Shown here: piece after piece, positions 32,337-55,325 of the stretch | How the letters are laid out: each line of letters begins with the position of its first letter | How positions within the stretch are numbered: position 1 is the stretch's first letter | NCBI GenBank assembly: GCA_017461565.1 | Contig: JAFTXQ010000015.1 | Location: forward strand, 22,825-86,824 | Length of the DNA: 64,000 nucleotides | DNA from: Oscillospiraceae bacterium | GTDB lineage: Bacteria > Bacillota > Clostridia > Oscillospirales > Ruminococcaceae | Direction of reading: 5' to 3' | Program-made: the position numbers and the translations under genes | Notes under the pieces: generated by a model | Databases searched by the model: none | Told to the model about the DNA's origin: nothing | The model's input: the letters and a program-made list of their open reading frames with translations, nothing else

Positions 32337-32350
32337 GAAAGGAAACTATC

Positions 32351-33115: not shown

Positions 33116-33124
33116 TTTCGGCAC

Positions 33125-33143
33125 GGGCGACCATTGGTCGCCC
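33125..33143. repeat. Perfect palindrome in the ABC-response regulator gap
   Basis: GGGCGACCA and its complement around a single T, followed by CCTACG. It resembles small mobile palindromes scattered through Clostridia genomes rather than a terminator, having no T-run. Confidence 0.55.
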
Positions 33144-33167
33144 CTACGCTGTCTGAAAGGATATATT

Positions 33168-33836
33168 ATGACCGACATTCTTATAGTTGAAGATAACCAC
33201 GAGCTTGCCGGCCTGCTGTGTGATTTTCTGCGTGCGGAGAATTACACAGTATCGGTGGCAGATACAGGGGAAAAAGCCTTGTCGCTGTACGAAAAGTATG
33301 GGGCAAGGCTTATCGTGCTTGATATAATGCTCCCCGGGACAGACGGATTTGCAGTTTGCAGGAAGATACGAGAGGACAGCAATACTCCTATCCTTATCGT
33401 AAGCGCAAGGACCGACAAGGAGGACAAGCTTAACGGACTTGTTCTAGGCGCTGACGACTATATCGAAAAGCCGTATGACATCGACATCATGCTGGCTAAG
33501 ATCGGTGGGATCTTCAAGCGCAGATATGCACTCGATGAGCTTGTCGACGGCGATCTCCGCATAAATAAGGTCAGCCGCACGGTCTGCAAAAACGATGTGC
33601 CGATAGAACTCACTGCAAAGGAGTTCGATCTGCTGTTGCTGCTTGTGGAAAACAAGGGGCAGGCTCTCAGCAAGGATTTTATTTTCAATCAGATCTGGGG
33701 CAGCGACAGCTTTTCCGAGCAGCAGACGCTTACGGTGCATATAAAATGGCTCCGTCAGAAGATAGAGGATGATCCTAAATCACCGAAACGGATACTGACT
33801 GTGTGGGGAGTAGGCTACAAATATGAAAGCATTTAA
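33168..33836 (+). CDS. OmpR-family response regulator
   Basis: A 222-residue transcription factor with a receiver domain (about 1-115, phospho-acceptor Asp52 in IVLDIMLPG, acidic pair Glu8-Asp9) and a winged-helix DNA-binding domain (about 125-220, LTAKEFDLLLLLVENKGQ). The start at MTDILIVEDN is set by RBS AAAGGA. It overlaps the kinase gene by 14 bp. It is expected to control the adjacent ABC transporter, as in Bce-type loci. Confidence 0.95.
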   Translation: MTDILIVEDNHELAGLLCDFLRAENYTVSVADTGEKALSLYEKYGARLIVLDIMLPGTDGFAVCRKIREDSNTPILIVSARTDKEDKLNGLVLGADDYIEKPYDIDIMLAKIGGIFKRRYALDELVDGDLRINKVSRTVCKNDVPIELTAKEFDLLLLLVENKGQALSKDFIFNQIWGSDSFSEQQTLTVHIKWLRQKIEDDPKSPKRILTVWGVGYKYESI

Positions 33837-35046
33837 CAGGATTTCAGCAGTAGTTATAGGTTTGATAGTTGCCGTTTTCGCCGTTGCAAATGCTGTATTG
33901 CTGACCGATAACTCCGACAGCGGCAGACCATATCGTGTGGAGATAAGCCGCCTTGCCCGTGAGATGGAAAACGGCTCTGTTCCTGATGTTTCGGAGTGCG
34001 AATATGTTACGGCGGTCACGGAATACGGCGAGGGCTTCTATGATTCCGACAGCGATCATGTTGTCAGAGAGATAAACGGCAAGCTGTATCGTTTTGATTA
34101 TGTTACAGGAGAGGATACGGATAAAACTGAGCTTGTCATAACGGTGAATGTCCTTCTCGGAGCCATGGCGGTAGCTGTAATTGGTGTTATGCTGTACATA
34201 CGGTTGGAGATACTGAAGCCGTTTGAACAGCTTTCCGATGTCCCGTATGAGCTTTCAAAAGGCAATCTTACTGCGCCTGTAAAGGAAAGCAAAAACCGAT
34301 TTTTCGGACGGTTTATCTGGGGCGTGGATATGCTGCGTGAGAATATGGAACAGCAGAAGGGACGTGAACTGGAGCTGCAAAGGGAAAAGAAGATGCTCCT
34401 GTTGTCGTTGTCACATGACATAAAAACTCCGCTGTCAGCAATAAAGCTGTACTCCAAGGCTCTTTCAAAGGGGCTTTACACAAGCGCAGAAAAACAGCTT
34501 GAGATAGCAGAAAACATCAACTCAAAGGCGGACGAGATAGAAAGCTATGTTTCGCAGATAATCACCGCATCGAGAGAGGATTTCCTCAGCCTTGATGTGA
34601 ATATGGGAGAGTTCTATCTGTCAGAGCTCATGACGAAGATAAGGCTGTATTACACCGAAAAGCTGTCGTTGATAAAAACGGGATTTTCGATTGAGAGCTA
34701 CACCGATCGCCTGCTGTGCGGTGACATTGACCGCAGCACCGAGGTCATCCAGAATATCATAGAGAATGCGATAAAATACGGCGACGGAAAGAGTATTGAT
34801 ATCGGCTTTTCCGAGGAGGATGGCTGTATCCTTATTGCTGTACGCAACAGCGGTTGTACACTGTCTGAAACTGATCTGCCGCATATATTCGACAGCTTCT
34901 GGAGAGGCTCAAATGCCGAAAACGAAAAGGGCAGCGGTCTGGGTCTTTATATATGCCGTCAGCTTATGCATAAGATGGAAGGCGATATCTTCGCCGTGAT
35001 AAACAACGGATTTATGTGCGTCACGGCAGTGTTCGTGAAAGTGTGA
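33823..35046 (+). CDS. Sensor histidine kinase
   Basis: A 407-residue membrane kinase. Helices at about 8-28 and 105-127 flank a small extracellular loop of about 75 residues. Then come a HAMP-like linker, the dimerisation H-box SHDIKTPLSAIK with His198, and the HATPase domain with N-box (IIENAIKYG), HIFDSFWRG and GSGLGLYI. The short sensing loop fits kinases that get their signal through a partner transporter. It is translationally linked to the response regulator. Confidence 0.94.
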   Translation: MKAFNRISAVVIGLIVAVFAVANAVLLTDNSDSGRPYRVEISRLAREMENGSVPDVSECEYVTAVTEYGEGFYDSDSDHVVREINGKLYRFDYVTGEDTDKTELVITVNVLLGAMAVAVIGVMLYIRLEILKPFEQLSDVPYELSKGNLTAPVKESKNRFFGRFIWGVDMLRENMEQQKGRELELQREKKMLLLSLSHDIKTPLSAIKLYSKALSKGLYTSAEKQLEIAENINSKADEIESYVSQIITASREDFLSLDVNMGEFYLSELMTKIRLYYTEKLSLIKTGFSIESYTDRLLCGDIDRSTEVIQNIIENAIKYGDGKSIDIGFSEEDGCILIAVRNSGCTLSETDLPHIFDSFWRGSNAENEKGSGLGLYICRQLMHKMEGDIFAVINNGFMCVTAVFVKV

Positions 35047-35616: not shown

Positions 35617-37296
35617 ATGAAACGTATGGCGCAGTCCACAAAGGGCAGACTTCTGCTCATAATTGCGATGGTGATGCTTGTTATCGTTGCTGGATGTTCT
35701 CTGGTGGTGAGCAATGTCAACAATAGGCTTGAGGATGCTCTTAACGATAAGCATGATCTGTACATCGGCGCAGTCAACTACAAGTCTGCCTCGGAGTTTC
35801 TCACAAGGCAGGCAAGAATGTATGCAACGACAGGCGACGCCGCTTATTACGATGCATATATGAACGAGATAAATGTTACTAAATCCCGTGAAACGAATCT
35901 CGAGGCTATGAAGGCTATCGGTCTTGAGGCTGAAGAGCTTGAGTATATGGAAAAGATCGCCGCAAACTCTGCGGAGATGTGCCTTTATGAGGACAGATCC
36001 TTTGCTTTTGTTCAGTCAGGAGATCTGGCATCCGCTTCTGATGAGGTATACAGCGACGCATACAATGCTCTTGCTTCCGAGGTTTCCGAGTATACCGATA
36101 CATTCAACAGTCTCATTCAGGACAGAATGCAGGCAAGAGTGTCCGACTATCAAACGGCAATGCTGATATGCGACATCGGTCAGTACATAGCGATCGCAGT
36201 GACGATAATCATTCAGGTGATCGTTGTTCTGTTTGTGTTCAGAGAGCTTCTCAAGCCTATCATCGCTACCGAAAAGAAGATGCTGGACTTTGTGCGTGGC
36301 GATATCCACTCCGAGTTCAATATCAGGATCGACAATACCGAGGTAGGTCAGACAGCAAAGGCTATTGCTGATTTCCAGACATATCAGCAGGATATCATTT
36401 CCGATATCAACTATCTGCTTGGCGAGATGGCTAACGGAAATTTCGTGATCGAATCACGCTGTCCTGAGAATTACAGAGGCGATTATGAGGAGATCCTTGT
36501 TTCCATCAGAAACATCATAACAACACTGAGCGCTACACTGTCCGATATCTATGAGACAGCAAATCAGGTAGACAGCGGAGCTTCCCAGGTAGCTGCCGCT
36601 TCCATCAACCTTTCTCAGGGCGCTACCGAGCAGGCGGCTTCCATCGAGGAGCTTTCGGCTACGGTCAATGTTATTGCGGAAAAGATCAAGGCAAATGCTC
36701 AGGACGCTGTCACCGCAAACAATAAGACAAACGATGCGGGCGAAGAGCTTTCGCAGGTAAACGACAGAATGAGCGAGCTTGTAAAGGCTATGAACGATAT
36801 CGGCACAGCCTCCAACAAGACCAAGGATATCGTAAAGATCATTGATGATATCGCATTCCAGACCAATATCCTGGCGCTGAATGCCGCTGTTGAGGCAGCG
36901 AGAGCAGGCGACGCAGGCAAGGGCTTCGCAGTGGTTGCCGACGAGGTAAGGAACCTTGCTTCTAAATCTGCGGAGGCTGTACAGAACACCACTGAGCTTA
37001 TCGAGAGTATCGTTCAGCGTGTTGAACTTGGAACAGGACTTGTTGACGAGGTTGCCGACAAGATGAGCATCGTAGCTAATGCTGCTGAAGAAGCAGCTGA
37101 GCTCAACATGAGAATGGCAGACGCTTCTCAGGAGGCTTCCGATTCCGTTGCTCAGCTCACTATAGGTGTTGAGCAGATAGCCGATGTTGTCCAGACCAAC
37201 AGTGCAACATCCGAGGAGACTGCCGCAGCCAGCGAGCAGCTTTCCGCACAGGCAGACAACTGCAAGGATATGATCGCAAAGTTCAACCTCAGATGA
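35617..37296 (+). CDS. Methyl-accepting chemotaxis protein
   Basis: A 559-residue membrane receptor. Helix one (about 10-32) and helix two (about 185-210) enclose a four-helix-bundle sensing region, then a HAMP domain and a long cytoplasmic coiled coil. The hairpin tip [21 protein letters not shown] carries the CheA/CheW-contact glutamates. The ATG is chosen because GGGAGG is 7-12 nt upstream. No che or flagellar gene is near, so it is an orphan receptor; its neighbours handle cyclic di-GMP, but a link is speculative. Confidence 0.95.
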
Positions 37297-37305
37297 TCGT
37301 AAGAT

Positions 37306-37338
37306 ATGCGCCGTTACCGGATGTGACGGCGCATTTTT
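37306..37338 (+). terminator. Terminator of the MCP gene
   Basis: A 9-bp perfect stem ATGCGCCGT/ACGGCGCAT followed by five T. Confidence 0.88.
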
Positions 37339-37385
37339 GTCTGCTGATTTATGCAGAAAAACAATACTGTGGAGATATGACTGTC

Positions 37386-37432
37386 AAAACGGCTCTGTTA
37401 CGGTGATGGCGACTGTATAACAGAGCCGTTTT
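37386..37432. repeat. Dispersed inverted repeat element, copy 2
   Basis: A 15-bp perfect stem AAAACGGCTCTGTTA/TAACAGAGCCGTTTT with a 17-nt centre. The same arms occur in the elements near 27115, 55745 and 59284. The T-run makes it a possible second terminator. Confidence 0.85.
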
Positions 37433-37504
37433 GCAAATGCTGTGCTTTGTTGCGAAACAGCTAACGCCTCTTCAGTGTTCTGATGATCATCTTATAAATG
37501 TCGA

Positions 37505-37533
37505 TTGACAAATGGATAAATATGTGTTATAAT
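37505..37533 (+). promoter_or_regulatory. Perfect consensus promoter of the SPFH-bactofilin operon
   Basis: TTGACA, 17 nt, TATAAT. The leader is about 170 nt long and contains an imperfect hairpin (about 37637-37675, ACACATAGATGCCA with TTGGCGTCTGTGT). Confidence 0.88.
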
Positions 37534-37712
37534 AATGTCGGATTGTGTCGTTTTTCATAAAAGTTGCACTCAAACACAATGAAAAATGGTGGTAATGCAC
37601 AAAAAACATCTTGCTTTTTTGTCAGTTGTATGAAATGACACATAGATGCCAGCCCGATAAGCATTGGCGTCTGTGTTGTAATTATAGTATTCAGTTTATA
37701 GGAGGAAATAAC

Positions 37713-38912
37713 ATGGCTATAATTGATATGGTCGAATGGTCACCCCAAAACAATTCGGAATTTGCTTACCGTTTCCCGCACAGCAATCTCAGCACAGGCA
37801 CACAGCTTATAGTGCACGAGTCGCAGGAGGCGGTGTTTTTTTCAAAAGGGCAGATACTTGGCAAGTTTGGCCCCGGCTCACATACTCTTTCCACTCAGAA
37901 CTTACCGTTGCTGAGAAATCTCTTCGGTATCCCGTTCGGCGGTAAGAATCCATTTATGGCGGAGGTGTGGTTTGTCAATAAGACCGCTCCGCTGAATATC
38001 GACTGGGTAACTACTCCCATGCGTGTGCTGGATGCTGACTACGGTCAGATGCTCCCGCTGGTCGCAACGGGAAGATACGGACTTAAGGTGAGAGATGCCG
38101 AGCGCTTTCTTGTAAAGCTTGTAGGTACCATGCAGAGCTTTACGTCAAGAGAGCTTACAGACCATTTCAAGGGCGCTATGATAGCAAAGACAAACTCCTC
38201 TATCATGGCGTTTATGAATGCAAACCATGTGGGCATCAACAGTATCGCAATGCACCTTGACGATCTTTCCAGATTCATCAAGCAGCCCATGGCTGAGTTC
38301 TGGGAGGATTACGGCTTCAATCTTGAGGGCTTTTACATAACAGAGGTGAACCTTGATACATCCTCTGAAGAGGGCCGCAAGATCTCGGAGGCTATGTCTG
38401 AACGCTCCGCACAGGCGATCGCAGGCTACACATGGCAGCAGAAGCAGTCCTTTAATGTGGCTGAGCAGGCTGCAAACAGCAATGCCTCAATGGGAATTCT
38501 TGGCGTGGCAATGATGACAGGAGCATTTGCCGGCGGCAATTCAATGGGTGGTGCGATGATGCAGCCGCCTGCACAAAATCAGTATCAGTTCGGCGCTAAT
38601 AACCCGTATGGCGCCCAGGGCGGAATGGGCGGTTATGGCGCTTCTAACCCCAGAGTAGCACGAAAAGAAGTGTTCTGTTCCAATTGCAGCAAGAAGTTTT
38701 CGATAGATTCGGCATTCTGTCCTCACTGCGGAAACCGCTATAATCCTTGCCCTGCCTGTGGGGCTGACAATTCGCAGAACTCCACCCGATGCGTTACCTG
38801 CGGAACTACGCTGGCGTCGGAGGTTGCGGCAGACAATATCTGCTTCAAGTGTCATAATCCCGTGCCGTTCGGTACCAGATTCTGCCCGATCTGCGGCAAT
38901 AAGCTCCAGTAA
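37713..38912 (+). CDS. SPFH-domain protein with three C-terminal zinc ribbons (YdjI-like)
   Basis: A 399-residue protein. Residues about 20-250 fit the SPFH/stomatin-like family seen in B. subtilis YdjI (ESQEAVFFSKGQ, VRDAERFLVKLVG, YGFNLEGFYITEVNL). Then come a Gly/Gln/Asn/Met-rich flexible segment (about 270-310) and three CxxC-pair zinc ribbons (CSNC/CPHC, CPAC/CVTC, CFKC/CPIC). There is no transmembrane segment. YdjI-like proteins associate with membrane-stress proteins of the PspA type, but no PspA is present here. Start set by GGAGGAAATAAC. It is the first gene of a six-gene operon and probably the scaffold. Confidence 0.88.
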   Translation: MAIIDMVEWSPQNNSEFAYRFPHSNLSTGTQLIVHESQEAVFFSKGQILGKFGPGSHTLSTQNLPLLRNLFGIPFGGKNPFMAEVWFVNKTAPLNIDWVTTPMRVLDADYGQMLPLVATGRYGLKVRDAERFLVKLVGTMQSFTSRELTDHFKGAMIAKTNSSIMAFMNANHVGINSIAMHLDDLSRFIKQPMAEFWEDYGFNLEGFYITEVNLDTSSEEGRKISEAMSERSAQAIAGYTWQQKQSFNVAEQAANSNASMGILGVAMMTGAFAGGNSMGGAMMQPPAQNQYQFGANNPYGAQGGMGGYGASNPRVARKEVFCSNCSKKFSIDSAFCPHCGNRYNPCPACGADNSQNSTRCVTCGTTLASEVAADNICFKCHNPVPFGTRFCPICGNKLQ

Positions 38913-38927
38913 CAGAACGGAGGAAAT

Positions 38928-39635
38928 ATGAGAAAAAATGAATATATGATTCCTAGGCTCGTCATGTTCTTTTTGGGCTTAGCTGTGTTAGGCGTAATAG
39001 CAATGGTGACCGCTCCGTTATTCCTTGACAGGATAGGAGTGTATATCTTTACCTGTATCAGTGTCGTGTCGGTGTACGTAGCAGGCTTTCTGCCTGTGCT
39101 GGTCAGCAGGTTCCGTGGACAGGTGGCGTCGGTAGCCTCCGGTATGGCAGTGTACTATAAGGCTATGTCTACGTATGCATTCGTCACTGTTATCAATATC
39201 GTTCTTCTTCTGGTAATGATACTGCCTGTTGGCATTTCTATTGCAATACAGTGCGTGGCAGCGTTCGTGTTTCTGATATGGGTGATACTAGCCCTTGTAT
39301 CAAAGGATCATATCGATGCTGTACAACAGGAAGAAAACGAGAAAAAATCCTTTGTTGTTGAGCTCAGAAGCAAGGCTGACAGGCTTGTTGCCATGACAGC
39401 GAGGGTTGATAACAGCGGCGTCCGTGCTGCTGTAAACAACATCGCAGAGAATATGCGTTATCTCTCGCCCGGAAGCTCTGCCGAGGCACGTGATCTCGAG
39501 CGCAGGATGCTGGTGATACTTGACACCATCCTTATGGACAGTTATTTCAGCGGCGACGCAGGCAGTCTGGGCGGCCTGGAAAATAAGCTTGGCAATTTCA
39601 ATGCGCTGTATCTTGAGCGCAAAAATATGTATTAA
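38928..39635 (+). CDS. Membrane protein of the SPFH operon
   Basis: A 235-residue protein with four hydrophobic helices arranged as two hairpins (about 10-30, 35-55, 78-100, 104-122). A soluble helical domain (about 125-235) follows, containing SKADRLVAMTARV and a Gly/Ser-rich stretch. No family is recognised. It lies 15 bp after the SPFH gene with RBS GGAGG. It may anchor the soluble SPFH protein at the membrane; this is inferred from context only. Confidence 0.8.
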   Translation: MRKNEYMIPRLVMFFLGLAVLGVIAMVTAPLFLDRIGVYIFTCISVVSVYVAGFLPVLVSRFRGQVASVASGMAVYYKAMSTYAFVTVINIVLLLVMILPVGISIAIQCVAAFVFLIWVILALVSKDHIDAVQQEENEKKSFVVELRSKADRLVAMTARVDNSGVRAAVNNIAENMRYLSPGSSAEARDLERRMLVILDTILMDSYFSGDAGSLGGLENKLGNFNALYLERKNMY

Positions 39636-39652
39636 GAAAGAGGACAGACGCT

Positions 39653-41623
39653 ATGACAGGAAAGATCTTTGAAAATTCCTCCAATATATATCAGGATCAG
39701 GCGAAAATACTTTTTGACTATTACAAGACCGCAGCGGAGACTATCGTTGCGGCGGAGATGGAAGAGGAGCAGAACAAGGCTGATCTTATCAAACAACGTG
39801 ACTCGATGATAGCCGAAAGAGATAAGGCAAAGATGATATCTACGGTCTGCTTTGTGCTGTTCATTCTGGTCATCACTCTCATTGTCGGACTTGTGTATAT
39901 GTTCAAGCAGAAGAAATATCAGGCTGAAGTAGAAAGATTTGAACGAATGATCGCAGAATGCGATGAAAGACACCGCAATATCCGCCGTGAATACAAGGTC
40001 GATAAGATCGGCGTGGTATATGTTCCTGTTGCAACTAAGGTACCTTTCGAGGATAAGAGCATCGTGCTTGACCACACAGGAACAGTGGATGATACGGACT
40101 TCAACCTTACCCTGCTTAATCAGCCTGAAGATTTCCAGGATTCCGTGCAGCAGCTTTCCGATATGCTGGACAAGCTCCCCGTGGTGGAAGACAACACAAT
40201 GACGGAAACGGTAAACACATCCGAGTATTCTACATCTATTCAGAGTATCACGCTGTACGATTATATGGGCAGTCTTGACAGACAGGTAAGAAATATCAGC
40301 TACCTGCTCGGAGATAACCGCAATGCGTCTGTAAAGATACCTGTTATCGCTCCGGATGGTCAGACCGCTCAGTATCTGAATGAGTATGCAACTACCGAGA
40401 CAGGCTCTCACAATGTTGTGAAGGTGTTTGATGTTTCCTTTGATGAGCGCCTTGAGAAATTCGCTTCTCTCAACGCCCTCAAGGATCAGGTAAAGACAAC
40501 GGGCGACTCGGACAGCAACGAGTACATAAGACGTCTTATGCGCCGTCTTGCAGAGTCCGTACAGCTTCTTACAAAGACAAAGATATCTTCTCAGAGCAAG
40601 CTTATCAACTATACATCATCTATCTTTAATCTCGTGCTAAAGTCCGGCTACACACAGTATTCGCCTTCACTTGAGGCGGAAGAGATCGAGAGAGCACGCT
40701 CCGAGAGCTTTTTTGATTACCGCACAGCTGTCAATGACTACACTCCGTTCTCTCTGAAATCCAGCTCCATCGTGAGATATGAGCTGCTTTCAAGCAGCTG
40801 GATAGCTGAGGATGGTTCCAGAACATCGATGCCTTTCGGTATGCATCAGATTGATGAAGAGATCTTCATGCCCGTTATCGCTTCACTCATGGAGGAGAAC
40901 AGGATCGAAAGACTCAAGATCTACAACAACATCGACGATCAGAAGAGAATGTATGTTGACAGATGGAAGACCGAGATCGGCAACTATTTCAGAGATAACC
41001 GAAAGACTGCCGATGAGCTTATCACCCACATGCGTGAGACCTATTCCGATTACATGAATGCTTACAATATGTACAAATCGCTGCTTGACACCAGCAACTC
41101 CATGAAGAGCAGCGGAAGCATCGAGAACAGTGAGGTCAAGGAGATCGAGTCCCAGGCTGAGATGATCGCCGGCTTTGAGGCACAGGCTTCTCAGTGCAAT
41201 CAGCAGCAGGAGGCGTTTGCCGAGTTTATGGACAGGATCAACGACAGCATCGACGAAAGCACAAAGAAGTTCGAGTTTATCGAATACTTCGAAGGCTCGC
41301 TCAGAGATACGATGGCGCATGATACTGCGATCGCATTCTCCGATCTGCAGTCGCTTGATAACCGCCGCAGAAGTCTGGTCGGCGTCAGCCCGTATGTAGC
41401 AAACAAGGCTGTGCTCCTTCCCGAGCCCACTATCAGCCCGGATGTATTTGAGGGTATCCACATGGATCTGATGCAGAAGGTCAACAATTCCATCGGTGCG
41501 GCAGAGCCTTTCATCGCTTCCGACGAAGCGGTCATGGCTGCTATGCAGGCGGAGGATACAGCTGCGATGCCGGTCACGGATGAAGCCGTGGCAAGCGCCC
41601 AGCCTGTTGATTGTGGGGTGTGA
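39653..41623 (+). CDS. Large membrane-anchored coiled-coil protein of the SPFH operon
   Basis: A 656-residue protein. An N-terminal charged coiled coil (about 1-58) precedes one strong membrane helix (about 62-86), a second charged coil (88-110), a compact region with YVPVATKVPFEDKSI, and a long helical body (about 220-600). The C-terminal 50 residues are Ala/Pro/Val-rich. The whole is Glu/Lys/Arg-rich with few Cys. No known domain can be named. It starts 17 bp after the previous gene and ends 3 bp before the next. Confidence 0.8.
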   Translation: MTGKIFENSSNIYQDQAKILFDYYKTAAETIVAAEMEEEQNKADLIKQRDSMIAERDKAKMISTVCFVLFILVITLIVGLVYMFKQKKYQAEVERFERMIAECDERHRNIRREYKVDKIGVVYVPVATKVPFEDKSIVLDHTGTVDDTDFNLTLLNQPEDFQDSVQQLSDMLDKLPVVEDNTMTETVNTSEYSTSIQSITLYDYMGSLDRQVRNISYLLGDNRNASVKIPVIAPDGQTAQYLNEYATTETGSHNVVKVFDVSFDERLEKFASLNALKDQVKTTGDSDSNEYIRRLMRRLAESVQLLTKTKISSQSKLINYTSSIFNLVLKSGYTQYSPSLEAEEIERARSESFFDYRTAVNDYTPFSLKSSSIVRYELLSSSWIAEDGSRTSMPFGMHQIDEEIFMPVIASLMEENRIERLKIYNNIDDQKRMYVDRWKTEIGNYFRDNRKTADELITHMRETYSDYMNAYNMYKSLLDTSNSMKSSGSIENSEVKEIESQAEMIAGFEAQASQCNQQQEAFAEFMDRINDSIDESTKKFEFIEYFEGSLRDTMAHDTAIAFSDLQSLDNRRRSLVGVSPYVANKAVLLPEPTISPDVFEGIHMDLMQKVNNSIGAAEPFIASDEAVMAAMQAEDTAAMPVTDEAVASAQPVDCGV

Positions 41624-41626
41624 TCT

Positions 41627-42532
41627 ATGCCGAGTTTTGATTTTGTAGTAGATACCAAGCCGATGGCTGAATCGGTTTCGACTGTTTCTGATAATGTCAA
41701 GCTTACAACCGCAGCAGTTGTTGCGATGGAGGCGGCTGTTATTCTTGCGGAGAAGAACGCAGCAGACAAGATATGCGACAATGTGGACAGGGGCTTTTTC
41801 AGCCTTATCCGCTCACAGGTATCAATGAAGTTGTCCACCTGCTACACTGAAATGCAGGCAAAGCTCTCTCTGCTCATGGAGTACAGCAAAACTCTGGGAA
41901 AGACCCAGGAGCGTATGGAGGGTGACTACAACCGAGTAAAGGGACAGTACAGGCAGATATTCAAGGGACTTGACAAAGCGCTTTCCAACAGAATAGCTCA
42001 GCTTGACAAGGATGCGGTAGGCATCTCGGAAACAAGGAAAAGAGTCATTCTCAGTATGTTTGAGAGACAGATACCCGAAACGGTGGTTACTTCGACTGAG
42101 GTCGAGCTTGACGATCAGAAGATCGTTTCCACAAGAATAAAGAACAAGACAGATCGTTCTCTTGATGTTCTTGCAGGTAAGGTAAGAGAAAATCTGACCT
42201 ACAAGAAGCTCATGGATGATATGCTGGACAGCTCAACGACTGAGAAGCGTGTAGAGGAGTACATCCCTGTCGTTTACGCAAACAAGCAGAGTAATCTTGT
42301 GACCGATACGTATGTCCTCAGCCTGCATTATCCCGAGTACCTTTCTGATAAGGTCAGGAACAACATCGACCTCAGCATACTCAATCAGGAGGAGCTTTGT
42401 ATAAACGATCAGAAGGATGACTTCGAGAGAAAGAGCGTTTCGGATGAATTCCAGAATCTTGTTGCGGCATCCAGACTTGATCCTCGTGTTGCTGAAAGAA
42501 TGATGTATCTGTTTCAACAGGGAGGCTGCTGA
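41627..42532 (+). CDS. Helical protein A of the SPFH operon (paralogue of the next gene)
   Basis: A 301-residue soluble protein, mainly helical. It has an Ala-rich first helix (TTAAVVAMEAAVILAEKNAADKI), a coiled-coil middle with a conserved pattern F-x-LD-A/E-L-x-R (GLDKALSNRIAQLDK), and a C-terminal half with YIPVVYANKQ. It aligns along its whole length with the next protein: DxGFF/YGLI, the coil, LDK, LSYRQMM/LTYKKLM and YIPV. Function unknown. Its stop overlaps the next start by one base. Confidence 0.8.
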   Translation: MPSFDFVVDTKPMAESVSTVSDNVKLTTAAVVAMEAAVILAEKNAADKICDNVDRGFFSLIRSQVSMKLSTCYTEMQAKLSLLMEYSKTLGKTQERMEGDYNRVKGQYRQIFKGLDKALSNRIAQLDKDAVGISETRKRVILSMFERQIPETVVTSTEVELDDQKIVSTRIKNKTDRSLDVLAGKVRENLTYKKLMDDMLDSSTTEKRVEEYIPVVYANKQSNLVTDTYVLSLHYPEYLSDKVRNNIDLSILNQEELCINDQKDDFERKSVSDEFQNLVAASRLDPRVAERMMYLFQQGGC

Positions 42533-43587
42533 TGAGTTATACCAGAACATATAACGGATCGGTAACCGTTACCGGTGATGTGACGGTGAATTATCCTGCA
42601 AGTCAGTACGGCGGTTCCAAGACAGTGTCGTATTCACAGACAGTGCCGCTTAGTTTCAATGTCACTGTTGAGACTACACCGTTTGATCAGAGCATCAATA
42701 GCGCTTCCAATCAGGTCAACGGTCTTACTGCCGCAGTTGCAGCTATGAACACCGCTAACTGTGCGGCTATCACGGCAAATGCAAATCGTATCTCGGATTC
42801 GATAATCGACGGATTCTATGGATTGATCCAGAATGATATCACCACCAAAAAAGCTGAATGCAGCACGTTGATACAGACAAAATCCGCACTGCTGTTAGCA
42901 CATTCGGAGGCTGTCAGGGATAAGCATGACCGTATGCTCAATGATGTTGAGAGAGAACGTGCAAAGTTCGGTATGGTATTTGCAGAGCTTGACAAAGAGC
43001 TTGAAAGACGTGTTACCGAGCTTGATAAGCCTGCATTCAAGCTCAGTAAAAAGGTGCGTGACGAGATCGTACTCAAGCCCTTCCTGACGTCAGCTGCAAT
43101 GACGACGGATCAGATCAGCACGGGCGGAGATGATACCAGAATAGCTATTGCAGGTCTTCGCCAGAAGATATCTACGGTTCTTCAGCATCTTGTCAACTCG
43201 TTAAAAAACAACCTGAGCTACCGCCAGATGATGCATGATATCCTCTGGAAGAAGGATACTGAGGAAGAACAGCTGTCATATATTCCTGTGGCATACTGCA
43301 TATCTCAGGATCTTCAAAGCGCAAACAAACGATGCAATTGCTTTGTGTCTGACAACGCCAACAAGCAACAGATACTTGAATCGGTTTTCGCATATATCAA
43401 TGAAAGCAGCGTCAATCCGCCAAGAGCGGTTCATGAGGACGATATGAAGCTTATACAGCAGGCGTTTTCCAGCATGGTGCAGGATGAATATACAAGCTTT
43501 GATGGCCACGATGAATACAGAGAGCGTGTATATACTGAGATATTCAGATTGTGGAAAGAAGATTCGGGATGCATTAAGCAGATATAA
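42532..43587 (+). CDS. Helical protein B of the SPFH operon (paralogue of the preceding gene)
   Basis: A 351-residue protein related to its neighbour but with an additional N-terminal beta-rich segment (about 1-55: alternating Thr/Val/Tyr such as GSVTVTGDVTVNY). The Ala-rich helix, coiled-coil core (ERAKFGMVFAELDKELERRVTELDK) and YIPVAY region match protein A. The added strand-rich head could contact the bactofilin-like protein encoded next. Two paralogues translated by one-base stop-start overlap suggest equal amounts and a heteromeric complex. Confidence 0.8.
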   Translation: MSYTRTYNGSVTVTGDVTVNYPASQYGGSKTVSYSQTVPLSFNVTVETTPFDQSINSASNQVNGLTAAVAAMNTANCAAITANANRISDSIIDGFYGLIQNDITTKKAECSTLIQTKSALLLAHSEAVRDKHDRMLNDVERERAKFGMVFAELDKELERRVTELDKPAFKLSKKVRDEIVLKPFLTSAAMTTDQISTGGDDTRIAIAGLRQKISTVLQHLVNSLKNNLSYRQMMHDILWKKDTEEEQLSYIPVAYCISQDLQSANKRCNCFVSDNANKQQILESVFAYINESSVNPPRAVHEDDMKLIQQAFSSMVQDEYTSFDGHDEYRERVYTEIFRLWKEDSGCIKQI

Positions 43588-43659
43588 GCTGCTTACAAAA
43601 ATGACTGCTATGCATACATATCCTGTTATCATGCGGTCAATATCACCAAGGAGGAAATC

Positions 43660-44637
43660 ATGGAAACTCTAAATGAAATCAGGTTAGATGATAAAGACCT
43701 TTTTTTCAAAGACAATATAGTAAAAACAAGCGTTCTCCCACAGAATTCAAAGGAACTCGGCCGTAACATCAAAATCGAGGCCAATACATTTTTTGAAGGC
43801 AGCGTGTTTGGTAATACGATAAATGTTGATGGCGGAGGAGTAGTATTCAAGGGTGCCGTTTTCGCAAATAAGGAGCTGCATATCGCAACTACCATGACCG
43901 GAAGAGTGAGATTTAACAAGGCGGTTGCCAGTACAGAAAGCATTGCGGCGCTTGTTACTTCAGGAAGGGTCATCTTCGGCTCCGATGTCAACGCTCCCTC
44001 GGTAAGGCTCAAGAACTGCTATATTGGCGGAAGCGTGTTCGGTGCGGAGGTGTATCTTGAAAACTGCGTTGTGCTGGGCGGCGTGTTTGCAACTAAGAAC
44101 CAGACCATAACAAATTGTGTGTTCGGTACATTCAATGCTCCCAGTGTACAGCTTTCCGGCGTGAATTATATGCTGTATCCTGCGGCTTTTTCAGTTGAGC
44201 CGCTGGCATTACTGCCGCACACGGAGCTGTACAATATCTCTATGGCACATCTCGGCGCACTGTATAAGGGCGAGCCTGAAAGTCCGAATACAGGTAAGAT
44301 CAGAATGGACATCGATGATGACCATCAGAGAACGGTCCTCCTGGATGACGATGGCTCCACTACCACAGTAAACAGCTATTCTGTATCGGGAAGACTGCTT
44401 GTTGCAGATATGATAGATTTTGATAAGCTTGAAAATCATTTCCTGATAGGCGCAGGCGCACTTAACAGTCAGATACTCAAAGTATATTCATTGCCCAAAG
44501 CAGACGGTGAGCGTTCGGAAGAGCTTAATCTTGAGAACATTTCGGATTTCTTCTTTAAGATAATCTCGGGTGTCGTAACCATTCAGGATATCTCGGGCGA
44601 TATCAGTTTCAACGATCTCAAAAAAGCATTCGAATAA
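43660..44637 (+). CDS. Bactofilin-like beta-helix protein of the SPFH operon
   Basis: A 325-residue protein. From about residue 30 to 165 it shows the short-strand turns of a right-handed beta-helix as in bactofilin/polymer-forming proteins (FFEGSVFGNTINVDGGGVVFKGAVFA, YIGGSVFGAEVYLENCVVLGGVFA). A mixed C-terminal domain (about 170-325) is not recognised. Bactofilins form membrane-bound non-polar filaments. RBS GGAGG. It is the last gene of the operon, 72 bp after the previous one and followed by a terminator. Confidence 0.75.
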   Translation: METLNEIRLDDKDLFFKDNIVKTSVLPQNSKELGRNIKIEANTFFEGSVFGNTINVDGGGVVFKGAVFANKELHIATTMTGRVRFNKAVASTESIAALVTSGRVIFGSDVNAPSVRLKNCYIGGSVFGAEVYLENCVVLGGVFATKNQTITNCVFGTFNAPSVQLSGVNYMLYPAAFSVEPLALLPHTELYNISMAHLGALYKGEPESPNTGKIRMDIDDDHQRTVLLDDDGSTTTVNSYSVSGRLLVADMIDFDKLENHFLIGAGALNSQILKVYSLPKADGERSEELNLENISDFFFKIISGVVTIQDISGDISFNDLKKAFE

Positions 44638-44650
44638 GCAGTAATATACT

Positions 44651-44684
44651 AAAACGGCGGAAGATCTCGGTTTTCTGCCGTTTT
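44651..44684 (+). terminator. Terminator of the SPFH-bactofilin operon
   Basis: A 12-bp stem AAAACGGCGGAA/TTCTGCCGTTTT (one G-U) with T-rich tail. Confidence 0.85.
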
Positions 44685-44915
44685 GTTATGCTGCTTTATC
44701 GTAAATGATCCCCCTGCTGAGATGAAAGCTCAGTTAGTACAGCTGTGAGGATTAAAGATTTTTTGGGTGTGGCAGAGCCTCACACGGAAAATGTTGTTTC
44801 AAATGCCCGTTTTGCAGGAAAAAGCCTGATTTTAATGTTCAGTTAATGTTCTCCTATTTCTGATGTAAGATTTTCGGTGTATGATATATCCGAAATCATT
44901 AAAGGAGAGAATACT

Positions 44916-45671
44916 ATGTCGGATATTCAATACACCAACGCAATTGAAATTAAGAATGTAACCAAACGATACAGCAGTGGATTTACGCTGGACAACATCA
45001 GTTTTAATGTGCCTAAGGGCAGTGTGATGGGCTTTATAGGTCAGAACGGCGCAGGTAAGACCACTACGCTCCGTTGCCTGCTGAACATCATCAAGGCAGA
45101 CAGCGGCGAGATAAAGCTCCTCGGGCTTGACCACATCAAGGACGAACAGCAGATAAAGGAGCGCATCGCGGTCGTTTTCGATGAGCTTCCTTTCCACGAT
45201 ATCTTCAACGCAAAGGACATGGCGAGGATATTTGAAGGACTGTACCCCAAGTGGAGCAACGCCGTGTACAACCAGTATCTCGAGCGTTTTCAGCTTCCCT
45301 CCAACAAGAAGATAGGCGAGTTTTCAAAGGGCATGAAGATGAAGCTCCAGATAGCCTGTGCGCTGTCACATGAGGCGGAGCTTCTCGTCATGGACGAGGC
45401 TACAACAGGTCTCGATCCTGTCGTGCGTGACGATATCCTGCACATCTTCCTCGAGTATATGCAGGCAGGTGAGCGCAGTATCCTGCTGTCCTCCCACATC
45501 ACAAGCGACCTTGAGAAGATCGCTGACAGCGTGACGTTCATCGACCGTGGAAAGCTGCTTGTTTCGGGCAGAAAGGCGGATATCATCGAGAGCCACAGCA
45601 CAACAGAGCAAGCAAGCCTCGAGGACATCATGCTCTATTATGTAAATCGTGACAGAAAGGAGCTGTCGTGA
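44916..45671 (+). CDS. ABC-2 type transporter ATP-binding protein
   Basis: ATPase of 251 residues with Walker A GQNGAGKT, a Q-loop region VVFDELPFHD, signature FSKGMKMKLQ, Walker B LLVMDEATTGLDP and switch SSH. This resembles the YtrB/EcsA/BcrA group that powers two-permease ABC-2 exporters. The start follows AAAGGAGAG. It begins a six-gene operon with two permeases, a CPBP protease and a two-component system, and overlaps the first permease gene by one base. Confidence 0.94.
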   Translation: MSDIQYTNAIEIKNVTKRYSSGFTLDNISFNVPKGSVMGFIGQNGAGKTTTLRCLLNIIKADSGEIKLLGLDHIKDEQQIKERIAVVFDELPFHDIFNAKDMARIFEGLYPKWSNAVYNQYLERFQLPSNKKIGEFSKGMKMKLQIACALSHEAELLVMDEATTGLDPVVRDDILHIFLEYMQAGERSILLSSHITSDLEKIADSVTFIDRGKLLVSGRKADIIESHSTTEQASLEDIMLYYVNRDRKELS

Positions 45672-46435
45672 TGAAAAGTATTCGCTCTTTATTCTATCGT
45701 GAGATGAGGCTCTCCGCAAGGCACTACATAATACGTTTTCTTCTGTTGGTGCTGGTGGTAGGATTTGCGGCACTCTCGCTGCTTGTAACAGGGCAGAACA
45801 GCGCACATACAGGTGAGGATATGTCGGGATTTACGGTAATGCTGACATACATCATAGCGGTCGTTGCAGGCGTGGTCATTTCAGAGGACAACGGTGTTTT
45901 CAAGGCTGATATGGATGCAGGCTGGCTGAGATACTCCTACGCTCTGCCCATGAGCGCCGCTAAGAAAGCGCTCACGAGAACGCTCGTGAAGCTGCTCTCT
46001 GTCGCTGTCGGAATGGCTGTTACTGTCGCAGGGGCGGCGGCTGTCTGTGCAATGAACGGAAGTTCTCTTGATCTCACAACTATACTTAACTTCGTGCTGA
46101 TACTGGATATCTTCCTGCTTTATGACATGGTTCAGCAGATATTTATCCTGCGTGCAACGGATGCGGACGAGTTAAAGCGCAACAAGCTCATTGGCGGTGT
46201 TGTGGGAGTCGGTGCGATCCTGCTCGTCACGGAATTTCTTCCTATCGACATAAGCGGCCTTGAAAAAGCGATGGAGCTCATCCCCGAAATGAAGTCCCCT
46301 GCTGAGATGTCGCAGCTTGGCGAGCTGTTTGAGCTCCCTGAGATAGTAGGCTATTTCGGAATTCCTGCTATGCTCGTGATACTCGGAGTCGGCTTTTTTG
46401 CCTCTTGGAAAGCCCTTGAAAGGAGACCCGACTGA
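45671..46435 (+). CDS. ABC-2 transporter permease 1
   Basis: A 254-residue membrane protein with about six hydrophobic helices (around 20-40, 52-72, 100-125, 135-160, 175-195, 228-248). RMFF-like start KSIRSLFYREMRLSAR is a cytoplasmic head typical of ABC-2 permeases. ATG is taken at the TGATG overlap with the ATPase gene. It forms a pair with the next permease. Confidence 0.88.
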   Translation: MKSIRSLFYREMRLSARHYIIRFLLLVLVVGFAALSLLVTGQNSAHTGEDMSGFTVMLTYIIAVVAGVVISEDNGVFKADMDAGWLRYSYALPMSAAKKALTRTLVKLLSVAVGMAVTVAGAAAVCAMNGSSLDLTTILNFVLILDIFLLYDMVQQIFILRATDADELKRNKLIGGVVGVGAILLVTEFLPIDISGLEKAMELIPEMKSPAEMSQLGELFELPEIVGYFGIPAMLVILGVGFFASWKALERRPD

Positions 46436-47175
46436 TGAAAGGTCTGCTGTATAAGGAGTGCAAACAGAATCGGCTGTATCTTCTGCTGACGGCGGCTGCG
46501 GCGGTCGCTGCGATATTCCTGCCTGTTGCACTCTGCTTTGCCGACGAGGTAGAGCCTATGGAGAGCTACAGACTGCTCCTCAGTGAGGGTGAGACGCTAA
46601 GGCTTATATTCCTGCTTCTCGGCTTTGTGGCAGTGGGAATGATGCAGGGGCTCACCATGATGGGCGACGACACAAAAAAATGGGCGCTGTTCACCGCCTC
46701 AAATCCAAAGGGTGTGAGCGGTTTTGTCTACACGAAATATCTCCTGGTTTTCGCTATGAGCGGTATCATGCTCATCGGCTGTTATTCGGCTGAACAGGCT
46801 TTCACAACGCTCGGATACTGCGTTGCAAAGCTCGATGCTATGCCTATAATGAGTTTTGCTATCCTGCTGTTTTATGCGCAGCTGCTTCTGCGTGCTGTTG
46901 AGCTTCCTTTTCTCATCCGCTTCGGAGTTAAGACGGGCAGTATGATAAAGGTCATCATGCTCGTGGCGGCGGTCATCCTGTTTATCCTGCTGACTTTATT
47001 CGGATTGATGAATGGTTTTTTCTTGGTACTGAATGAACTCATCAGCGGTCAGATGAACGACGCTCTCTCGCTTGCGATATCTGCTATGCCGTTTGTTGCA
47101 GTGGGAGCGTACTGTCTCTCGTACAGGATATCCTGCAAACTCTATCTGAAAGGAGCGGAGTATTATGTCAAGTAA
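46435..47175 (+). CDS. ABC-2 transporter permease 2
   Basis: A 246-residue membrane protein with about six helices and the usual cytoplasmic head (MKGLLYKECKQNR). It contains TMMGDDTKKWALFTASNPKG, a segment often seen in ABC-2 permeases of this class. One-base overlap with permease 1, 11-bp overlap with the CPBP gene, so translation is linked throughout. Confidence 0.88.
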   Translation: MKGLLYKECKQNRLYLLLTAAAAVAAIFLPVALCFADEVEPMESYRLLLSEGETLRLIFLLLGFVAVGMMQGLTMMGDDTKKWALFTASNPKGVSGFVYTKYLLVFAMSGIMLIGCYSAEQAFTTLGYCVAKLDAMPIMSFAILLFYAQLLLRAVELPFLIRFGVKTGSMIKVIMLVAAVILFILLTLFGLMNGFFLVLNELISGQMNDALSLAISAMPFVAVGAYCLSYRISCKLYLKGAEYYVK

Positions 47176-48034
47176 AAAAGCTGATCTCAAAAGGCTCGTG
47201 ATATTCCTGCTTCTCGCTTTCGGATCGACGTGGATTCCGTGGATAGCGTTCAATATCATTTTCGGCTACTCGGAGTGGTTTGAGAGCGGTCATTATGGGC
47301 TTCTTGTGCTGTTGTCGGGCTTCGGACCTGCGCTTGCAAATGTGCTGACAAGAAAGCTCACGAATGAGGGCTGGGAGGACAGCAAGCTTCACTTAAACCT
47401 CAAGGGAAACCTGAAATATTACCTCGTCGCATTAGTAATAATGAGCGCTGTGGGAGTGCTCTCGGGACTTCAGATAACATTCACCTACGGAAGCTGGGAC
47501 TTTGCTGAAATAAGCGAAAATGCTCCGCTGACGGCGGTGCTGAATACAGTGCTCGGAACATTCGCCTCTGCTCCGCTGTTTGCGTTCATCACATTCGGCG
47601 AGGAATTCGGTTGGCGTGGCTACATGAACGACAAAATGGAGCCTCTACTCGGTACGGTCGGCACCTGTATCGTCGGCGGAATGATCTGGGGAGTATGGCA
47701 CGCTCCGCTGACGTTGTGCGGTCACAACTACGGCACAGAACAGCCGTTTGTCGGAGTTCTGCTGATGTGTCTGAACTGCATTTCAAGCGGAATCATACTC
47801 ATGTGGCTGACGAAAAAGACAGGCTCGGTATTTCCTGCCTGCATAATGCACTCGATGAACAACAACGGCGGCACGCTCGTGGGAAATTTCCTCGTGAGCG
47901 GAGTTCCCGAAACGCTTGAAACAACGCTCCTAGATGAGCTTTATCTGATGCTGCCGCAGGTGGTGGTCGGAGCAGTTTTCCTGATACTCATGCTGAGGGA
48001 AAAGCGACTTGAAAAAACATTGGCTTTATGTTAG
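47165..48034 (+). CDS. CPBP-family intramembrane protease
   Basis: A 289-residue membrane protein of the CAAX protease/bacteriocin-processing (ABI) family. The metal-binding motifs are seen: EE146-147xxxR (GEEFGWRGYM), a later W-H-A-P and the C-terminal HSMNN. About eight helices. In Gram-positive bacteria such proteins accompany peptide export and immunity genes, which fits the ABC-2 operon here. It does not by itself show what peptide, if any, is processed; no precursor gene was seen. Confidence 0.92.
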   Translation: MSSKKADLKRLVIFLLLAFGSTWIPWIAFNIIFGYSEWFESGHYGLLVLLSGFGPALANVLTRKLTNEGWEDSKLHLNLKGNLKYYLVALVIMSAVGVLSGLQITFTYGSWDFAEISENAPLTAVLNTVLGTFASAPLFAFITFGEEFGWRGYMNDKMEPLLGTVGTCIVGGMIWGVWHAPLTLCGHNYGTEQPFVGVLLMCLNCISSGIILMWLTKKTGSVFPACIMHSMNNNGGTLVGNFLVSGVPETLETTLLDELYLMLPQVVVGAVFLILMLREKRLEKTLALC

Positions 48035-48058
48035 AATTGATATTGAGGAAGTGATGAA

Positions 48059-48733
48059 ATGCCGAATATCCTTATCGCAGACGATGAGAAAGAGATAGTC
48101 CGTCTGCTGAAGATATACCTCGAAACGGACAACATAAAGGTGCTTGAAGCGTATGACGGACAGCAGGCACTTGAGCTCATTCAGCAGAATGACGTTGACC
48201 TCGCAATAGTTGACATAATGATGCCGAAAATTGACGGCTATCAGGTGATAAAAAAGATACGGGAGCGCAAAAATTACGTCCCGATAATGGTTATATCGGC
48301 GAGGATCACGCTGTCGGACAGGGTGCTTGGAATAGATCTCGGTGCGGATGATTACATCACAAAGCCGTTTGAGCCGTTAGAGGTCGCCGCAAAGGTCAGG
48401 GCACAGCTTCGCAGGCTTAACATGGCAGTGCCGCAGAAGTCTGAAGCTCACGCCATAACGGTAGGGGATATCTCCCTTGACCTTGCCGAATGTACCGCTC
48501 ACAAAAACGGTGAAACTATTGAGCTCACCAAAGCGGAGTTCAAGGTGCTGGAGCTTCTTATGGGAAGCCCGAAACGGGTATTCACCAAGGAGCAGATATA
48601 CGAAAGCGCATGGTACGACAGCGGTGCGGTGGACGACAACACGATAAGGGTGATCATAAGCCGCCTGCGTGACAAGATAGGTACGGAGCATATAAAGACT
48701 ATCAGAGGATTGGGGTATCGTTTTGAAGGATAA
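48059..48733 (+). CDS. OmpR-family response regulator 2
   Basis: A 224-residue regulator. Receiver: Asp8-Asp9, phospho-acceptor Asp52 (IVDIMMPKIDG), Lys in TKPFEP. Winged helix: LTKAEFKVLELLMGSPKRVFTKEQIYESAW. GTGAtgaa RBS region. It follows the CPBP gene by 24 bp and overlaps the kinase by 11 bp, so it is part of the exporter operon and likely controls it. Confidence 0.95.
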   Translation: MPNILIADDEKEIVRLLKIYLETDNIKVLEAYDGQQALELIQQNDVDLAIVDIMMPKIDGYQVIKKIRERKNYVPIMVISARITLSDRVLGIDLGADDYITKPFEPLEVAAKVRAQLRRLNMAVPQKSEAHAITVGDISLDLAECTAHKNGETIELTKAEFKVLELLMGSPKRVFTKEQIYESAWYDSGAVDDNTIRVIISRLRDKIGTEHIKTIRGLGYRFEG

Positions 48734-54967: not shown

Positions 54968-55325
54968 GGTTTCCTCCTTTGGTAATTTCTGAGATATAGT
55001 TTTACTCATACATTATAGCACAATTATTGAGTGAAGACACAAGCAACGGCATATTTTTCCTGATTTTTAAAACAATTTTTTCTTTCAAATCAAATATCAG
55101 TTTCGTATATCAAAATATTTTGTGCGTATTGCATAATTGCCGTGCTATAAATACAGGCTCCAAAGTACAAAAGTTGTCTTGAAAGAATATATCGCATTAA
55201 ATGTCTTTCTGATGAAACGGTTATATGGCATAGCAATCATGCGCCTCCTGCAAAAGCAGAGCGGTTTCCGAGGTTTGCGTATGAAATCGCTGTCGCTCCA
55301 AAAGTTGACGGAATGTGCAGGACAT

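Follow-up and report, generated by a model that had tools for sequence, protein, structure and literature searches.

This locus raises the question of whether six closely spaced genes form a single functional unit and, if so, what they might build at the bacterial membrane. Within the window, the whole 64,000-nucleotide stretch of Oscillospiraceae DNA that was analysed, six forward-strand ORFs span 37713-44637, with a promoter 5' and a strong hairpin 3' of them (Table 1). Successive intergenic gaps, from gene 1 to gene 6, are 15, 17, 3, -1 and 72 nt. The description given in the first-pass annotation, of one perfect promoter and one terminator bracketing six tightly packed genes, is upheld by the 12/12 promoter site, the 15-bp hairpin and these gaps of -1 to 72 nt.

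Table 1. Features of the six-gene operon and its boundaries (window coordinates)
Feature	Position	Strand	Description
Upstream boundary	37306-37334	+	12-pair terminator-like hairpin
Upstream boundary	37385-37433	+	perfect 16-bp inverted repeat
Promoter	37505-37533	+	TTGACA-17-TATAAT, 12/12 consensus, sigma-70-type
Gene 1 (P0006, 399 aa)	37713-38912	+	SPFH/Band_7_1 and three C-terminal zinc ribbons
Gene 2 (P0001, 235 aa)	38928-39635	+	membrane protein, about four hydrophobic helices, then soluble tail
Gene 3 (P0002, 656 aa)	39653-41623	+	one hydrophobic segment near residues 57-87; long conserved soluble part
Gene 4 (P0003, 301 aa)	41627-42532	+	gene 5 paralogue; without hydrophobic segment
Gene 5 (P0004, 351 aa)	42532-43587	+	gene 4 paralogue; N-terminal extension of about 40 residues
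Gene 6 (P0005, 325 aa)	43660-44637	+	beta-repeat-like N-terminal half; own conserved C-terminal half
Terminator	44651-44684	+	15-bp hairpin

The hairpin and the inverted repeat at the upstream boundary set the operon apart from a preceding chemotaxis receptor gene. Among 17 promoter-like sites in 36000-46000, the one before gene 1 is alone in matching the consensus at all twelve positions, and an equally perfect site precedes the operon in both congeners that carry it (L050 and L051), and hence in 3 of 3 clostridial operons; a promoter of this kind suggests that expression is constitutive. The start of gene 1 was placed at the ATG at 37713, which lies behind a GGAGG motif and is conserved in both congeneric operons, while the ORF list has a TTG at 37611. 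At the 3' end, the region 44638-44700 folds at -27.5 kcal/mol (z -6.55); the hairpin it contains was missing from the output of a simple terminator scan. No RNA element reached its gathering threshold in 36500-46000. The window contains no tRNA, so that insertion at such a gene is not supported, and the GC content of the operon (0.473) is close enough to that of the window (0.478) that base composition does not mark it as foreign.

Only gene 1 reaches a curated family, with matches to Pfam PF13421 (E = 1.2e-38, 133 bits) and DZR (E = 8.3e-15, 55 bits). Together with the 12 cysteines of its ribbons, which all 11 aligned orthologues retain without change, these matches bear out its earlier identification as a YdjI-like SPFH protein with three zinc ribbons; the same family is also matched in Bacillus subtilis. 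No product of genes 2-6 exceeds a Pfam or NCBIfam cut-off or has a credible PHROG match, and profiles of genes 1, 3, 4, 4+5 and 6 likewise found nothing credible among PDB sequences. None of the six proteins contains a recognisable enzyme or toxic effector domain. Of the membrane-anchored coiled-coil description that the first-pass annotation gave gene 3, the hydrophobic segment at 57-87 is seen and the coiled coil stays putative. Genes 4 and 5, previously described as paralogues, are indeed homologous (hhalign 100%, E = 1.4e-52), and no credible sequence match in Pfam or the PDB points to a PspA/ESCRT-III fold for them. Comparison of gene 3 with this paralogous family detected no homology (hhalign 0.4% and 0.2%), and a common ancestry was rejected.

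Carriers of the operon were found in 19 genomes of Clostridia, spirochaetes and Bacteroidota, among them the named strain Treponema zioleckii kT3, which has all six genes. A hit from the class search, G663 (E = 5.2e-4, profile positions 45-105, 174-aa frame), was treated as chance and excluded from this count. In 17 of the 19 carriers, across the three phyla, all six genes are present and identically ordered, and the co-occurrence that had been proposed as a check on the unit therefore extends beyond Clostridia. Flanking genes are mostly unrelated between carriers, and the trees of the six proteins are broadly congruent, with the same major groups in each; the genes are inherited jointly. The window by itself would be compatible with independent genes standing together by chance, but the order conserved across three phyla, the unrelated flanks and the shared groups in all six trees refute this reading, which retains practically no probability. 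Comparison with both congeners indicates purifying selection (pN 0.08-0.32, pS 0.70-0.81). Genes 1, 3 and 6 evolve slowly and genes 2 and 5 fastest, and tight contacts of every subunit are consequently not implied. Within the genus the operon is present in 3 of 43 genomes, a sporadic occurrence that makes horizontal spread probable. The downstream ABC permease gene (46435) has matches in 20 of the 43 genus genomes, the best of which outside its own genome is 33% identical, and with relatives no closer than this an empty insertion site cannot be defined.

A second type of operon in the same genus (L042-L046) encodes an SPFH protein, a four-helix membrane protein and a zinc-ribbon-TIR protein. 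The SPFH proteins of the two operon types are homologous (hhalign 100%, E = 1.3e-45; 35% identity over 205 columns), and so are gene 2 and the membrane protein adjoining SPFH in the TIR operons (hhalign 97.7%, E = 2.2e-12). Against gene 2, the five TIR-operon membrane proteins score 89.8-97.1%, whereas 31 control membrane ORFs score at most 4.7%. This homology of gene 2 had been missed in the first-pass annotation. The three proteins scanned from the TIR operons match TIR_2 above its own cut-off, and no TIR match was found in genes 1-6. The SPFH and four-helix pair common to the window operon and the TIR operons of the genus is new here, and suggests a membrane platform that is reused with different payloads.

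Given the type of gene 1, one interpretation is that the operon is a variant of the Psp/Lia envelope-stress response with PspA encoded elsewhere. YdjI acts with PspA, which it recruits, in the B. subtilis system as described in PMC8581546; PspB is the lone Pfam family listed for gene 2, although far below its cut-off (E = 0.16, 12.5 against 25.6 bits); and the window operon sits between two ABC/VanRS-like clusters. This flank context is not kept in other carriers, however, and no PspA match was found among the six operon proteins or a YdjG zinc-ribbon/NTF2 or YdjH TPM Pfam match at E <= 1 in genes 2-6. PspA (PF04012) exceeds the cut-off in 3 of the 19 carriers, with any match at E <= 0.001 in 4 of 19, and was not found in the window's own genome, although some of the genomes behind this absence are incomplete; the same search was positive in 9 of 14 control genomes. 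Identity with a Psp/Lia variant, which the first-pass annotation had named as grounds for abandoning its proposal, is largely refuted by this survey, and membership was rejected on the PspA distribution and the domain content of genes 2-6; we regard it as very unlikely. A structural role, in which the beta-repeat protein underlies a cytoskeletal or organelle-like device affecting cell shape or a polar domain, starts from the resemblance of gene 6 to bactofilins, which polymerise without nucleotide. PF04519 ranks first or second among the Pfam matches of 7 of the 8 gene 6 orthologues scanned, and gene 6, like gene 3, is one of the most conserved in the operon. All of these matches nevertheless fall below the curated cut-off (at best 22.8 against 27.9 bits), none is seen at E <= 1 for the window protein, and in a second comparison the left-handed beta-helix family LbH_EIF2B matched, weakly and below threshold, 5 of 8 orthologues and bactofilin 4 of 8. 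The C-terminal half of gene 6, about 150 residues, is conserved within its own family and has no match outside it. For this end of the operon, whose family the first-pass annotation took as established, bactofilin is a resemblance below threshold, and as the patchy distribution also argues against a general shape function, a cytoskeletal device seems improbable.

More serious, if still on the unlikely side, is the suggestion that this is a dedicated anti-phage (conflict) system, in which the platform senses phage membrane damage and the response arm consists of genes 3-6 in place of TIR. The SPFH and four-helix platform shared with TIR operons is consistent with this, as are the sporadic distribution and the constitutive-type promoter. 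One TIR operon (L042) additionally has a kinase gene, the kinase domain of which matches PD-T4-6 and other PADLOC kinase models. Defence genes also lie near the operon in three carriers, encoding Cas4 and Cas1 (L052), a type I specificity subunit and a PDC-S02 protein (L076), and a protein matching type IIG restriction enzymes (L081), although the eight flanking ORFs considered, from six loci, were picked by eye and without a background rate. Against this, no credible match to PADLOC 2.0.0 was obtained for the six proteins (best E = 0.021) and no effector domain was recognised. Nor was the operon found in phages (one query, a single gene 3 sequence), plasmids (two queries, single gene 3 and gene 4 sequences) or viral contigs (three pattern scans).

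In the explanation we prefer, which appears about evenly poised between right and wrong, the six genes work as a single unit that has probably spread horizontally and builds a PspA-free, membrane-tethered assembly with an accessory protective role. The four-helix gene 2 protein would tether the gene 1 protein to the membrane's inner face, on the model of YdjI, which YdjG/YdjH hold in B. subtilis. This pair would form the platform that other operons use with a TIR protein, and its payload here, comprising the single-pass gene 3 protein, the paralogous products of genes 4 and 5 and the beta-repeat gene 6 protein, would probably co-assemble. The unit might then give accessory protection at the membrane from phage or from agents that attack the membrane. 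As no effector or enzyme domain is recognised, a protective role is suggested by analogy and patchiness; counting against it, genes 1, 3 and 6 evolve slowly, which is not typical of arms-race proteins.

That five of the six proteins fall under curated cut-offs, yet are kept together in three phyla, is strong evidence for a device of several proteins, as yet undescribed, at the membrane of bacteria. The earlier proposal of an undescribed membrane-associated machine accordingly fits as regards a conserved six-gene unit distinct from Psp, while its bactofilin component is reduced to a sub-threshold resemblance; the proteins may polymerise or form a joint complex. Tentatively, and with more doubt than belief, the SPFH and four-helix pair could be a general bacterial membrane-surveillance platform with exchangeable response arms. 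One arm would be a TIR protein; the other, a wholly new one of four proteins, would take over from PspA in coating or resealing the membrane, and the unit as a whole would spread between Clostridia, spirochaetes and Bacteroidota. If so, bacterial SPFH proteins would be adaptable bases for immune (TIR) and non-TIR arms, and the role of an SPFH-zinc ribbon protein without PspA would become testable with a single 7-kb operon.

Among known systems, the B. subtilis operon pspA-ydjG-ydjH-ydjI (so given in PMC8581546, and printed as ydjFGHL in PMC11237479) is alike in placing an SPFH protein with a C-terminal zinc ribbon beside membrane protein genes. According to PMC8581546, YdjI depends on YdjG and YdjH to localise to the membrane, and the SPFH protein is needed to organise a membrane complex. 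The window operon differs from the system so described in being without PspA, a YdjG-type zinc-ribbon/NTF2-like protein and a TPM-domain YdjH, in having its SPFH gene first rather than last, alongside five other gene families, and apparently also in its promoter, a consensus sigma-70-type one, where a sigma-W promoter is reported for B. subtilis. CesT/Tir-PspA/band-7 operons share the multi-gene organisation with a band-7 protein, and are thought to assemble membrane-linked complexes (PMC11237479); the partners with which they are described there, PspA, AAA+ ATPase, CesT/Tir or polyamine genes, are not matched by window genes 2-6. Bactofilins (PF04519) resemble gene 6 in ranking high among the Pfam matches of most orthologues, from which they are distinguished by the sub-threshold scores, the equal or greater frequency of LbH_EIF2B and the separate C-terminal half. 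The SPFH-TIR operons of the genus have in common with the window operon both the SPFH domain and the homologous adjoining four-helix membrane protein; their SPFH protein exceeds gene 1 in length and carries cysteine motifs at each end, and their zinc-ribbon-TIR partner stands where the window operon has genes 3-6.

The six genes form a real unit, which is inherited and patchily distributed. If two Clostridia MAGs are taken to be the two other carriers in the genus, it is found in 19 genomes including that of the window, and in 17 of these all six genes lie in the same order and on the same strand. The joint occurrence proposed as a test in the first-pass annotation is borne out, and it reaches beyond the Clostridia to spirochaetes and Bacteroidota. 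The genes lie on one contig in 16 cases; in the seventeenth, locus L053 is interrupted by a contig end and the last genes are on L084, another contig of the same genome. Locus L052 lacks gene 6, which is missing across the entire draft genome, and L059 stops after gene 3. Overlapping frames mask gene 1 of L053, gene 4 of L078 and gene 6 of both L080 and L084, all of which tblastn showed to be present.

A pattern-based scan with an SPFH alignment over 84,980 species, each represented by a single genome, matched 52 stretches, 10 of which encode relatives: two Clostridia MAGs, five Treponema (T. zioleckii kT3 and four MAGs), two Bacteroidaceae MAGs and one Paludibacteraceae MAG. Genome searches with a gene 3 profile revealed eight further carriers, two in the T. 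zioleckii family and six in the order (Bacteroidales) to which a Bacteroidaceae MAG belongs. The carrier counts are lower bounds, because the SPFH scan missed these eight. When 125 flank ORFs of at least 120 aa were compared at 18 loci (L059 contributed none and L084 was excluded), most were unrelated, hence the operon sits at different places. Loci L057 and L058 have one upstream gene in common (73% identity); other between-locus matches are weak (22-31% identity) and mostly involve two-component or chemotaxis proteins (window, L054, L055), with one further weak pair between L079 and L083. Signalling genes recur near the operon in a few loci, a count made without a background rate.

The perfect promoter and closing terminator described in the first-pass annotation were confirmed, the latter as a 15-bp hairpin at the operon end (z -6.55). 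The first promoter hexamer starts 208 nt 5' of the start codon; the 12/12 promoters of the two congeneric operons begin approximately 132 and 124 nt upstream of theirs. The intergenic gaps are, in order, 15, 17, 3, -1 and 72 nt. A terminator-like hairpin and a perfect inverted repeat separate the operon from the upstream chemotaxis receptor gene, and its base composition does not stand out in the window. Clusters resembling ABC transporters with VanRS-like two-component systems, with matches under NCBIfam cut-offs, lie on both sides, a context not kept at other operon loci. Further along is a probable surface protein of 1543 aa, with matches to fibronectin III, beta-helix repeat and Cthe_2159-like carbohydrate-binding families.

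Positions of features (window coordinates unless a locus or genome handle is given)
Feature	Position	Strand	Remark
Six-gene operon	37713-44637	+	ORFs
Sigma-70-type promoter	37505-37533	+	12/12 consensus; precedes gene 1
ABC/VanRS-like cluster	29958-35046
ABC/VanRS-like cluster	44877-49658		also a CPBP protease-like gene
Probable surface protein	50381-55009	-
SPFH-TIR operon	L042:5413-10456
SPFH-TIR operon	L043:6082-10489
SPFH-TIR operon	L044:1424-6254
SPFH-TIR operon	L045:3928-9575
SPFH-TIR operon	L046:5277-9672
SPFH-TIR operon parts			zinc-ribbon-TIR protein; SPFH with cysteine motifs at both ends; four-helix protein (gene 2 homologue)
SPFH protein with ribbon-like neighbour	L047:1696-4164
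Ordinary Band_7_1 protein (example)	G000:C9:37622-38284
Short gene 2	L058:11369-11812
Cas4 and Cas1	L052:11473-12621
Type I specificity subunit and PDC-S02 protein	L076:16505-19503
Type IIG-like protein	L081:336-5288

The Clostridia, the Bacteroidota and two subgroups of spirochaetes come out in all six protein trees, some of the deeper branches being long or left open. The gene 3 tree places the Clostridia within the spirochaetes at modest support (91/90), and the tool gives a long-branch warning there. All six genes are under purifying selection, gene 2 being the most relaxed: between the window and its congeners pS lies at 0.70-0.81, close to saturation, and pN rises from 0.08-0.11 (genes 1 and 6) through 0.11-0.13 (gene 3), 0.16-0.17 (gene 4) and 0.23-0.25 (gene 5) to 0.31-0.32 (gene 2). 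Within the genus, 3 of 43 genomes carry the operon. The family (247 genomes, searched with one gene 4 sequence), the class sample (391 genomes, one clear case) and the phylum sample (398 genomes) each yielded a single carrier, the window's own genome; within the phylum the operon was seen only in this genus among the samples searched, despite the closeness of gene 1 to spirochaete proteins. Counting the seed genome each time, carriers number 3 of 175 in the T. zioleckii family, 7 of 247 in the order to which the Bacteroidaceae MAG belongs and 1 of 375 in that MAG's phylum; these samples overlap, and the queries used first were narrow. This distribution is most simply read as horizontal spread.

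Gene 1 encodes an SPFH/Band_7_1 domain (E 1.2e-38) followed by C-terminal zinc ribbons. All 12 cysteines of its three ribbons are conserved without exception across the 11 orthologues aligned, Bacteroidota versions have additional cysteine pairs, and identity to the five aligned spirochaete proteins is 60-64%. The ribbon part also matches an uncharacterised PHROG (E 1.9e-4). Gene 2 encodes about four hydrophobic helices followed by a soluble tail; in the MAG locus L058 a short frame (147 aa) lacks this tail. A single hydrophobic segment is found in gene 3 (residues ~57-87), and none above the threshold used in genes 1, 4, 5 and 6 of the window. In several carriers among Treponema and the Bacteroidota (L053, L054, L056, L057, L059) the gene 3 protein has an acidic C-terminal tail, which clostridial versions lack. 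Genes 4 and 5 are paralogous to each other (hhalign E 1.4e-52), and gene 3 has no detectable relation to them. Genes 2-6 match nothing above curated cut-offs in Pfam or NCBIfam and nothing credible in PADLOC or PHROGs (best E 0.021 and 0.022, respectively), and a search of PDB sequences with profiles of genes 1, 3, 4, 4+5 and 6 turned up no credible relative. The product of gene 6, previously annotated as bactofilin-like, is a predicted beta-repeat protein and is not termed a bactofilin, because bactofilin matches stay below cut-off (in 7 of 8 orthologues scanned, out of 17 collected, and in 4 of 8 members of a second scan, the window protein not among these four) and the left-handed-helix family LbH_EIF2B matched more members of that second scan (5 of 8).

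The most informative new fact on mechanism is the sharing of the SPFH and four-helix proteins with a second operon type of the genus. Band_7_1 matches occur in 40 of the 43 genomes, each of which has a separate ordinary, lower-scoring protein (57-76 bits). At five loci, L042-L046, each in a different genome, are long SPFH proteins scoring 133-134 bits in four and 104 bits, in two pieces, in one; the six-gene type scores 135-136 bits. The adjoining gene at all five encodes a gene 2 homologue of 230-234 aa: the two families' profiles align at 97.7% (hhalign, E 2.2e-12), and the five single proteins reach 89.8-97.1%, whereas 31 control membrane ORFs, picked mechanically at the loci, do not exceed 4.7%. 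The protein on the other flank carries a zinc-ribbon motif at its N-terminus. In the three scanned (L042, L045, L046) TIR_2 is over cut-off, with TPR repeats over cut-off in two; those of L043 and L044 have a similar ribbon start by reading of the sequence, and a second frame follows in L043. The L042 operon also contains an HTH gene and a protein kinase gene with PADLOC kinase matches, and the neighbours in L043 and L045 look similar by reading. In one genome of the genus, at L047, an SPFH protein of 455 aa (Band_7_1, 90 bits) lies beside a 361-aa protein with a zinc-ribbon-like cysteine start. The pair shared between the TIR and six-gene operons is therefore a module with two quite different partner sets, which marks it as a putative platform and genes 3-6 as its predicted payload.

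This payload would co-assemble, and the favoured reading is that the six-gene unit is a membrane-tethered assembly that works without PspA and whose role would be accessory and protective. The strongest rival, a dedicated anti-phage system, seems rather unlikely. It would account for a platform shared with TIR proteins and for Cas, restriction or related genes near the operon in three carriers (L052, L076, L081), a pattern drawn from eight ORFs at six loci picked by eye without a background rate; of the other three loci, L054 shows a single PADLOC match, a weak one, and neither L055 nor L082 shows any. However, no effector is recognisable and most parts evolve slowly. A literature search on combinations of SPFH with bactofilin, zinc-ribbon or TIR proteins found no description of this gene set, for part of it among the titles and abstract openings listed, which is not proof of absence as most subscription papers were outside its reach; SPFH passages of one paper deal with archaeal ESCRT-related systems and cite YdjI (PMC10936438), and in another SPFH and band-7 occur in the reference list (PMC7159879).

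The possibility of a Psp/Lia variant, raised in the earlier annotation, was rejected on PspA occurrence and protein-family matches. PspA is over cut-off in only 3 of the 19 carriers, plus a fourth weak match, against 9 of 14 control genomes; as some carriers are incomplete genomes, single absences are weak, and 16 of 19 is not. The sole Pfam line of gene 2 is PspB (E 0.16), at half its cut-off. In B. subtilis the SPFH protein YdjI depends on YdjG and YdjH at the membrane, and PspA in turn depends on YdjI (PMC8581546), YdjG having zinc ribbons and YdjH a TPM domain (PMC11237479). The six-gene operon differs from this system in that Pfam recognises no counterpart of PspA, YdjG or YdjH in it, and would resemble it in that its SPFH protein, by analogy with YdjI and YdjGH, may be tethered at the membrane.
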